From Dehalococcoidia bacterium (GTDB lineage: Bacteria; Chloroflexota; Dehalococcoidia; Dehalococcoidales; E44-bin46): a stretch of 35,316 nucleotides of DNA. The position numbers and the translations under genes were made by a program. Below the pieces are notes generated by a model. That model was not told where the DNA came from. It searched no databases and was given only the letters and a program-made list of their open reading frames with translations. Below are positions 25,030-30,577 of the stretch, piece after piece; position 1 is the stretch's first letter, and every line of letters starts with the position of its first letter. The stretch is taken from assembly GCA_030605575.1 (NCBI GenBank), contig JAUWIC010000025.1, forward strand, positions 1 to 35,316. Direction: 5' to 3'.

Positions 25030-26463
25030 TCAATTTGGTTTGGTTACAACTGTCTCTGGCGCTTGCGTCTCATATTCAGGAGTATTTGGAAAAACCACAA
25101 TCCCGACTGTATCCAGGATTGCTTCGCGGCATCTTTTCGCAAATACTTTGTCTACGTTGGATGACAAATATTTTGAAACGTAGAATAAATCGGTAGTTCT
25201 TATCAGAGCAATACTGCTGCGTTTTGCTGCAGTTTGGCATTTCTCTGTAAAGAAGTCACTCCTATCCTCTGGTGGTGATAAGCGATAAGCATTGCCTATT
25301 AATGCGCCTTTGGCCATTTCGTTGATTTCATCACGAGAAAAATCTTCGTGTATATTCATTTCGAGTTGCCTAAGCTTGTCAATATTAACAGATTTATTAT
25401 CTTTACCCTCCGCTTCGCCAATGAGCCTTCCCTCTTTACTTTCAAAAACAACATCAAATTCAGATTCGCTATCGCGATATTGTGAGGCTTCAAAGCCAAT
25501 AAGTTTGAGGCTCTTTAAAATAGCGGCTTCAAGGGGCTTTCCTTTCTCGTAAAGCAGTCCCTTGAGCTCGGTTTCTGAGGCTAGAGCTTGCTGGAGATGT
25601 TCCTTTTCTTTCTGTAGAGCATCAATTTTAGTTTCTAGTTTAAGTAGCTTATTCCTAATCTGCTGTTCCTTCAGCAACACGAACTTTTCTTGTGCTACCC
25701 AATCGGGCGCTGGTGTAAACTCTCCGCCTTGTCTAAGTACCTTATCCACACCGACAATTGATGAAATAAACTGATTGCCTGTTTGGATTGCCTTTTTATT
25801 AAAGTATGTTTCACCTTTTCTTTCGTAGGTGAAGTCTTCACGTTCGAAGTCAATATATGGAAGCAAAACTAGTGTACCCTGTGCATCTTTGCATTTAAGA
25901 TAAGCGCCAACCGTTTGATTTCCCGTTTTTGTGATAACCAAAGGTCTAACTCCTTCATCACTAACAAAAACGCGGAATTCCGAAACAGTGCCCAACTCTG
26001 CCCAATAAGTAGCCAGCACATTATCCTTACCGCACAATGTCATCGACGTGCCTTTCGAGTTGACGACATTGATTCCTCCTGGGATTAATGCATAGTTTGA
26101 ATAACTGGTAACGTGTCTTGTTACTTGCCTATTCCGTCCAGTTCCCGAGAATGACTTTTCTCCTGTGGCTACATAGACCTCTTGAAGTTCATTTAACAGT
26201 AGGAACACGGTCTTACCAGCTCTAACCGCTCCAAGAATCTCACGTCGCCAGTGAGCTAGCTGTTCTTGTAGCTTGAAAGAGTTAGTGTCATTCAAGGAAG
26301 GCTTCCCAAGGTAATGATCTAATGAATAGCCATAGAATGAACTAATATCAGGATTGAAAACGGAAATGTCGTAATCTAGCAGTGAGATTTGCGAGTGTAG
26401 TGACTCAAATTCTAGTTCATCATGCGGTAAGCCCGTCCCGATTACTATTATATTCTTTGGCAT
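25030..26463 (-). CDS. Uncharacterised protein: novel N-terminal region, central coiled coil, C-terminal PD-(D/E)XK nuclease-like domain
   Basis: Coiled coil 'LLKEQQIRNKLLKLETKIDALQKEKEHLQQALASETELKGLL'; then 'EKGKPLEAAILKSLKLIGFEASQYRDSESEFDVVFESKEGRLIGEAEGKD'. Confidence 0.75.
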   Translation of the reverse strand: MPKNIIVIGTGLPHDELEFESLHSQISLLDYDISVFNPDISSFYGYSLDHYLGKPSLNDTNSFKLQEQLAHWRREILGAVRAGKTVFLLLNELQEVYVATGEKSFSGTGRNRQVTRHVTSYSNYALIPGGINVVNSKGTSMTLCGKDNVLATYWAELGTVSEFRVFVSDEGVRPLVITKTGNQTVGAYLKCKDAQGTLVLLPYIDFEREDFTYERKGETYFNKKAIQTGNQFISSIVGVDKVLRQGGEFTPAPDWVAQEKFVLLKEQQIRNKLLKLETKIDALQKEKEHLQQALASETELKGLLYEKGKPLEAAILKSLKLIGFEASQYRDSESEFDVVFESKEGRLIGEAEGKDNKSVNIDKLRQLEMNIHEDFSRDEINEMAKGALIGNAYRLSPPEDRSDFFTEKCQTAAKRSSIALIRTTDLFYVSKYLSSNVDKVFAKRCREAILDTVGIVVFPNTPEYETQAPETVVTKPN

Positions 26464-28548: not shown

Positions 28549-28704
28549 TTACTCAACCCCTAATTAAACTCTATTGTAGCACATTATAGCCTACTGTGAA
28601 CCCGCAAACTAAGCCCAAGATTTGCCACTATCAGTGAGGGAATGATATGCTTATGGCTGGGAAACCAAGTCGCAGGGGTTAAATTGGCTAACGAACTGCC
28701 TGAT

Positions 28705-29790
28705 ATGACCTTAAAGCCTATAGGTGTTGTTAGAAGTAAAATTGCCCAGCCGCCGCAGCCAGATGAGGGAAAGGTTATTTCCGAGATTGTGGTTGATAGT
28801 AGCCTGACCGAGGCTCTGGATGGGGTGGAGGGGTTCTCCCACATCGTAGTTCTCTACTGGATGCATCAGGCTCCCGCTGGTAAAGTGCCGACCAAGGTGC
28901 ACCCTATGGGCAAACAGGAGTTCCCCCTGGTGGGACTCTTTGTCACCCGGTCGCCCCAGAGACCCAATCCAATAGGGGTGAGTACGGTTAGACTACTTCA
29001 GCGCCGGGGGAATATACTGGTGGTTCAAGGTCTGGATGCTTTCGATGGCACCCCGGTAATTGATATCAAACCCTACATCCCGGAGTATGACTCCGTGGCT
29101 GAGGCTAAGGTACCCCAATGGCTAACCAAAGCTTGTGGAATAAGCCAGAAGCTACAGGATATCTACCACCGGCTTATGGACTGCTATGGGCCACAGCACT
29201 GGTGGCCAGCCGAAGAGCCGTTTGAGATGATAGTCGGTGCCATCCTTACCCAGTCCGCCGCCTGGGTCAATGTCGAGAAGGCTATAACCAATCTAAAAGC
29301 AGCTAAGGCACTATCACCAGAAGCGCTGCGCCGGCTGCCCCTCCCCGAGGTCGCCGCCCTTATCCACCCCTGTGGTTACTATAACGCCAAAGCGCTAAAG
29401 CTTAAGTCCCTGGCTCACTGGCTGGGAGAGCGCTATGGTGATAACCTTGATAAGCTGTTGGCTAATAATATTGATGACCTCCGCCAGCAACTGTTTTCCA
29501 TCCACGGTATCGGGCAGGAGACCGCCGATTCCATAATACTTTATGGTGCCAACAAACCCGTTTTTGTTATTGATGCTTATACCCGTCGTATAATTGACCG
29601 TATCGGCCTGGCTCCCGAGACCAATAGCTACACTGCTTATCAGACCCTTTTTATGCACGGTCTGCCCACTGATAGTGAGCTATTTAAGGAATACCATGCC
29701 CTGCTGGTCTGCCTGGCTAAGAATGTCTGCCGCAGCCGTCCCCTTTGCCAGCAATGCTGCCTCAATAATATTTGCCCATCCCATCGCTAA
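28705..29790 (+). CDS. Fusion protein: TrmO/TsaA domain + HhH-GPD (endonuclease III-family) DNA glycosylase with Fe-S-type cysteines (ORF opens at 28642; ATG 28705 preferred)
   Basis: 'MTLKPIGVVRSKIAQPPQPDEG...LFVTRSPQRPNPIGVSTVRLL...GLDAFDGTPVIDIKPYIPEYDS' then 'PFEMIVGAILTQSAAWVNVEKAI...IHGIGQETADSIILYGANKPVFVIDAYTRRI...CRSRPLCQQCCLNNIC'. Confidence 0.92.
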   Translation: MTLKPIGVVRSKIAQPPQPDEGKVISEIVVDSSLTEALDGVEGFSHIVVLYWMHQAPAGKVPTKVHPMGKQEFPLVGLFVTRSPQRPNPIGVSTVRLLQRRGNILVVQGLDAFDGTPVIDIKPYIPEYDSVAEAKVPQWLTKACGISQKLQDIYHRLMDCYGPQHWWPAEEPFEMIVGAILTQSAAWVNVEKAITNLKAAKALSPEALRRLPLPEVAALIHPCGYYNAKALKLKSLAHWLGERYGDNLDKLLANNIDDLRQQLFSIHGIGQETADSIILYGANKPVFVIDAYTRRIIDRIGLAPETNSYTAYQTLFMHGLPTDSELFKEYHALLVCLAKNVCRSRPLCQQCCLNNICPSHR

Positions 29791-29839: not shown

Positions 29840-30577
29840 ATGGAGGCAGACCAGCTAGCTACTAAATTAGTCGCCTGGATAAGGGAGCAGACTTTGGTTG
29901 CCGGGGGTAAGGGGGTGGTGGTCGGGATGAGTGGTGGGCTTGATTCCTCGGTATTGGCGGTATTGTGTCACCGGGCTTTTCCCCAGAACATGTTGGGGGT
30001 GGTTATGCCTTGCCACAGTAGTCAACAGGATGAGGAGCATGCCCTGATGGTGGCTAGCCAGTTTTCCATCCCGACTAAAGTGGTGGTTCTTGACCCTGTT
30101 TTTGATGCCTTGCTCCAGGCTTTGCCCGGTGATGGGGTAGAGCCTGGCGTCAGCCGGCTAGCTAAAGCCAACCTCAAGGTCAGATTAAGGATGCTTACCC
30201 TTTATTACTTCGCCAATCAGTTTAAATATATAGTGGCTGGGGCAAGTAACCGGAGTGAGCTGGCTGTAGGCTATTTTACCAAGTATGGAGATGGGGGGGT
30301 AGATATTTTACCCCTGGGTAATCTGGTCAAAGGACAGGTAAGGGAATTGGCTAATTTCTTGGGTATCCCGCAGCCGATTATTGATAAGCCCCCGTCGGCA
30401 GGTTTATGGCAGGGGCAAACCGACGAAGGTGAGCTGGGGCTTAGCTATGAGGAGCTCGATCGGTATCTGGTTACCGGCCAGACATCAACCGGGCTGAGGC
30501 AAAAGATTGAGTCTATGATAGCCACTAGTGCCCATAAGCGCTTGCCCCCGCTAGTGGCTAGCTTTCAGGAGGACTAA
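29840..30577 (+). CDS. nadE: Ammonia-dependent NAD+ synthetase
   Basis: 'GVVVGMSGGLDSSVLAVLCHRA', 'GASNRSELAVGYFTKYGDGGVDILPLGNLVKGQVRELA'. Confidence 0.94.
   Translation: MEADQLATKLVAWIREQTLVAGGKGVVVGMSGGLDSSVLAVLCHRAFPQNMLGVVMPCHSSQQDEEHALMVASQFSIPTKVVVLDPVFDALLQALPGDGVEPGVSRLAKANLKVRLRMLTLYYFANQFKYIVAGASNRSELAVGYFTKYGDGGVDILPLGNLVKGQVRELANFLGIPQPIIDKPPSAGLWQGQTDEGELGLSYEELDRYLVTGQTSTGLRQKIESMIATSAHKRLPPLVASFQED

Follow-up and report, generated by a model that had tools for sequence, protein, structure and literature searches.

The window, i.e., the whole 35,316-nucleotide stretch of DNA analyzed here, carries a gene in which a TrmO-like domain is joined in frame to an HhH-GPD glycosylase domain. 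The fusion derives from two overlapping genes whose pairing is widespread, a point overlooked by the first-pass annotation, and key residues as well as purifying selection are evident in both halves. We put the probability at roughly 0.55 that the product is a two-headed protein, consisting of an alkylpurine glycosylase and a methyltransferase-fold domain and fused from this conserved pair. The activities of both halves are predicted from sequence. The domains themselves are of known kinds; what is new is their combination and the gene pair, and no paper describing the fusion was found among the open-licence papers searched. The pairing would tie short TrmO proteins without the C-terminal domain to DNA repair, and the pair and its fusion provide a concrete system for finding what such proteins do.

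Reading frame, start codon and domain composition

Under a mechanical ORF rule, a single unbroken frame of 382 codons extends from 28642 to 29790 on the forward strand, and residues are numbered throughout by this 382-aa frame, though the likely protein has 368 aa. The stop-free run of 368 codons far exceeds those in 500 shuffles of the same stretch (median 97, maximum 219 codons). The TTG at 28684 was preferred as the start codon because an AGGGG Shine-Dalgarno-like run precedes it and the start position is conserved in relatives, TTG being kept in L004, L005 and L008 and replaced by ATG or GTG in farther relatives. The fused gene thus most likely occupies 28684–29790 (+; 368 aa), and the ATG at 28642 and Met22 at 28705 are both unlikely starts; an ORF of 28705–29790 had been proposed earlier, whose frame holds and whose start is probably misplaced. 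The next gene downstream is nadE (29840–30577, +), as assigned by Pfam and synteny; it belongs to the conserved surroundings of the fused forms and lies outside the fusion itself. Elsewhere in the window, 25030–26463 on the reverse strand encodes a protein of 477 aa for which neither Pfam nor PADLOC gave a convincing match.

Pfam places TrmO_N at residues 37–150 (E = 1.9e-32) and HhH-GPD at residues 198–338 (E = 1.2e-15), both far above the gathering score, bearing out the earlier recognition of a TsaA/TrmO-like and an HhH-GPD domain in one ORF. Specifically, the TrmO_N (TsaA, UPF0066) beta-barrel covers 28705–29106 (+; residues 22–155), as delimited by Pfam, PDB matches and mapping onto AF0241, and this half scores 131 bits against the NCBIfam model TIGR00104 tRNA_TsaA, whose cut-off is 93. 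The junction or linker (29107–29160, +), defined by DNA alignment and the structure model, is in part an extended helix (residues 159–182) predicted to run into the first glycosylase helix. The HhH-GPD glycosylase domain (29134–29787, +) was delimited by Pfam, alignment to MagIII, residue conservation and the model, and bears W187, W188, P189, W208, E293, D311 and R316. Near its end, the sequence has a putative four-cysteine [4Fe-4S] motif, C363-x5-C369-x2-C372-x5-C378 (29728–29775, +), whose spacing is exactly that read by eye in the first-pass annotation and is one residue shorter than the C-x6-C-x2-C-x5-C of Endonuclease III (Nth).

The AlphaFold2 model, a monomer computed from alignment A4 that carries no information on a dimer, has a mean pLDDT of 80, with most of the glycosylase half above 90 and a patchy barrel that falls below 50 at residues 81–109. 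Foldseek matched the model to D. radiodurans EndoIII-1 and EndoIII-3 and to MagIII (1pu7, 1pu6), and its N half to AF0241 (2nv4) and P. aeruginosa TrmO. The best PDB matches of the glycosylase half, in sequence and in fold, were D. radiodurans EndoIII-1 structures.

The TrmO-like and glycosylase halves

In AF0241, Q22, R82, D111 and K122 contact S-adenosylmethionine; E. coli TrmO depends critically on the Arg and Lys at the equivalent positions and requires a C-terminal DPRxxY motif (Kimura et al., PMC4132733). Every one of the nine fused proteins, and nearly every split one, retains R103, D132 and K143 of this site. The loop after the first strand, which bears the Gln22 position, is about 4 residues shorter here, and the position varies in the subfamily; a Gln can be aligned in the window's protein, its placement depending on the alignment. 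The S-adenosylmethionine site implied by the first-pass annotation is largely kept, one of the four contacts not being conserved in the subfamily. The N half is probably an S-adenosylmethionine binder of the TrmO superfamily. On the other hand, the DPRxxY motif and its C-terminal domain were sought in the fused protein and are absent, the chain continuing into HhH-GPD instead, so that the TsaA/TrmO domain previously described as complete is the N-terminal barrel alone. Archaeal TrmO homologues are likewise without the C-terminal DPRxxY domain (PMC4132733). A second, stand-alone TrmO-type protein, which carries the Gln, is encoded in the same genome (L002/L126). Because the C-terminal domain is missing from the fused protein and a stand-alone TrmO is present, we withheld the label "tRNA t6A methylase". 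The stand-alone gene L002 (G000 contig C10:63894–64328) encodes about 160 aa, also without the DPRxxY domain, and stand-alone TrmO-type copies were found in 7 of the 27 related genomes searched.

The C half aligns with H. pylori MagIII at about 25% identity over the WWP, TQ..F/W and GIG.E.AD stretches. Its W187, W188, P189 and W208, nearly invariant in homologues, are aligned to W24, W25, P26 and F45 of MagIII, which we take to be the aromatic base pocket of that enzyme. About 100 homologues from many phyla show little or no variation at E293, D311, Y313, R316, W187, W188, W208, Y246 and K250, and C372 is present in nearly all of them. The catalytic hairpin Lys of EndoIII, a bifunctional lyase, is absent; the hairpin reads GIGQETAD with Glu293 in its place, and Asp311 is present, as the first-pass annotation had noted when it took the loss of Lys as a mark of alkylbase (MagIII-like) glycosylases of the EndoIII superfamily, a pointer that our results support. 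A Glu at the EndoIII Lys position is common to T. maritima MpgII, MagIII, Mja-UDG and Sis-HhH-GPD, and in the last of these the matching Glu134 is essential and a Tyr and an Arg of the same spacing take part (PMC11754123).

The best-scoring NCBIfam model was PRK13913 (3-methyladenine DNA glycosylase, MagIII), at 88–90 bits against a cut-off of 192, and the C half did not reach the curated cut-off for any named glycosylase family. Since the PRK13913 score is under its cut-off, the name stops at "MagIII-like". The C half is probably a monofunctional MpgII/MagIII-like alkylpurine glycosylase, with its substrate suggested by these resemblances. In the genome of origin (an uncultured Chloroflexota bacterium; 1.1-Mb assembly, 90.6% complete), one other HhH-GPD protein is encoded, a Lys-type EndoIII with the hairpin GVGLKTA, and neither AAG nor Tag was found when looked for. 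The fused protein therefore appears to be the sole alkylpurine-glycosylase candidate in this genome; as the assembly is incomplete, the absence of others is likely rather than certain. A role in defence was also considered and rejected, PADLOC giving no more than a weak hit to REase_II (1.9e-5) across the HhH-GPD region and PHROGs none.

Origin of the fusion and spread of the gene pair

The fusion is present in nine Dehalococcoidia genomes, namely that of the window and eight others: G411 (L004), G396 (L005), G302 (L078), G495 (L006), G494 (L007), G493 (L111), G491 (L110) and G492 (L113). In most relatives, there are two separate adjacent genes with the TrmO-like gene first, and the usual split layout has a 19-nt overlap, the glycosylase ATG lying within the last codons of the TrmO gene. 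DNA alignment against the split L008 and L118 showed that the fused forms all carry an insertion at one site in this overlap (7 nt long, but 4 nt in L113; about 29132–29138 in the window), which moves the glycosylase into the TrmO frame and leaves the former glycosylase ATG out of frame. Pairwise dN/dS values among fused copies, which are rough, were 0.12–0.37 for the TrmO half and 0.16–0.26 for the glycosylase half, indicating that both halves are under purifying selection. An assembly or sequencing artefact that joined neighboring genes is conceivable in that the two overlapping genes of close relatives lie one frame-shift from fusion; nevertheless, the join occurs in nine different genomes, most of which agree in both the position and the length of the insertion, and such an artefact is next to impossible. 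The sequencing indel that the first-pass annotation had named as a possible cause of the fusion is thereby set aside.

The split state looks ancestral and the fusion derived. In a tree of N and C halves, the split form was the background and fused proteins fell in three places, with the split L008 and L118 among them; a single fused clade was rejected (p = 0.015). The fused junctions (L001, L004–L007, L078, L110, L111 and L113) thus have their insertion at a single site and, for the most part, of a single length, yet are scattered over three parts of the tree. This scatter may be due to insertion on several occasions, to exchange of alleles or to an erroneous tree. Note that L114 (G433) was examined as a fused form and rejected, a degraded TrmO remnant being read into the glycosylase.

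We sampled 60 Dehalococcoidia glycosylase loci, partly overlapping the genomes of the first homologue set, and a TrmO-like gene lay directly upstream on the same strand in 31 of them and was lacking in 29. The gaps within pairs were −12 to +87 nt, apart from a single 273-nt gap at a locus with a disrupted TrmO frame. The pair is also present in single-contig genomes of family f2 (L171, L180, L185 and L192). In other phyla, no TrmO gene was found near the glycosylase in 48 loci (L029–L046 and L048–L077), some of which have short flanks. One locus titled Patescibacteria (L009) has a glycosylase gene 83% identical to that of the window, far closer than those of other phyla, and is probably a mis-binned Dehalococcoidia contig. 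Because relatives keep both genes side by side and overlapping, we consider the link between TrmO and glycosylase to be real.

Both the fused genes and their closest split counterparts are flanked by argC and a potassium channel gene on one side and by nadE, degV and recA on the other, and in most other lineages the pair persists with none of those genes adjoining. In L022/L096, the same genomic place lacks the TrmO gene, and G134 and some other genomes appear to retain the TrmO-like gene alone. Upstream of the glycosylase, an in-frame stop interrupts the TrmO-like gene in a single-contig genome (L021:5986–6456), and a remnant of it is left in L114, indicating that some lineages are losing this gene but keeping an intact glycosylase.

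Proposed function, alternatives and comparison with known systems

In the two-headed protein that we favor, the C half would flip a methylated purine, presumably 3-meA or 7-meG, into its aromatic pocket and cut the glycosidic bond using Asp311 and Glu293, with no Schiff-base lysine. The N half would bind S-adenosylmethionine through its TrmO-like beta-barrel and should dimerise, since the S-adenosylmethionine contact made by Lys122 of AF0241 (K143 here) comes from the other subunit; such a dimer would bear two glycosylase heads. The TrmO-like half is most likely an active methyltransferase with a nucleic-acid substrate. A methyltransferase and a repair enzyme would then be made in step, by translational coupling and, in this lineage, also by covalent fusion, and we infer that the pair serves one process. 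Several observations count against this account: each of the two genes is also found alone (the glycosylase gene in 29 of 60 sampled loci, the TrmO-like gene apparently in G134 and some other genomes), the C half scores under curated cut-offs, the Gln22 position varies in a shortened loop, and the model of the N half is weak in places.

It is possible, if on the doubtful side, that the join is neutral, i.e., that an indel fused the genes of an overlapping operon in small genomes and that the halves do separate jobs in DNA repair and RNA methylation. This would take no more than a short insertion that shifts the frame within the 19-nt overlap, either gene can be missing, and the linker is short and variable; however, the pair persists in differing surroundings across much of the class, and purifying selection acts on both halves after fusion. 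S-adenosylmethionine is itself a DNA-methylating agent. The TrmO-like half might be a non-catalytic sensor or docking module for S-adenosylmethionine or methylated nucleic acid that steers or regulates the glycosylase, as the missing DPRxxY domain, the loop altered at one S-adenosylmethionine contact and the separate stand-alone TrmO would allow. We regard this as quite improbable, given that the nine fused proteins all retain R103, D132 and K143, whose counterparts matter for methylation by E. coli TrmO (PMC4132733).

The glycosylase half might instead act on another substrate, as the M. jannaschii UDG does on uracil. Mja-UDG is grouped with this half among the Glu-bearing enzymes (PMC11754123) and D. 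radiodurans EndoIII-1 gives the best PDB matches, but the WWP and aromatic pocket positions match MagIII and the genome yielded no member of another alkylpurine-glycosylase family, making such a substrate unlikely. A still bolder version of the two-headed protein has both halves acting on one base, the TrmO-like half writing or recognizing adenine methylation in DNA or RNA and the glycosylase removing the base according to that mark; we consider it very improbable. If true, a writer and an eraser, or a repair enzyme governed by S-adenosylmethionine, would reside in a single chain.

Among known systems, H. pylori MagIII and T. maritima MpgII share with the fused protein the Glu in place of the EndoIII Lys and the catalytic Asp, and MagIII further resembles it in the WWP motif and in having an aromatic side chain where MagIII has Phe45 and the fused protein Trp208. 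Unlike both, the fused protein carries a TrmO-like domain; it also has the four-cysteine cluster motif, which MagIII, to our knowledge, lacks. The class VIII methyltransferases TrmO/YaeB/TsaA, with AF0241 of Archaeoglobus (PDB 2nv4), resemble the N half in the N-terminal beta-barrel, the RPNP and DG.P..DIKPY motifs and the Arg, Asp and Lys of the S-adenosylmethionine site. The fused protein differs from them in its loop shorter by about 4 residues, in a Gln22 not conserved in its subfamily and in the attached glycosylase, and from E. coli TrmO in missing the DPRxxY C-terminal domain. Sis-HhH-GPD of Saccharolobus islandicus, for which no TrmO domain is reported and which has Ser where Asp is kept here, is alike in the hairpin Glu, the four cysteines and the spacing of the Tyr and Arg past the GPD position (PMC11754123).
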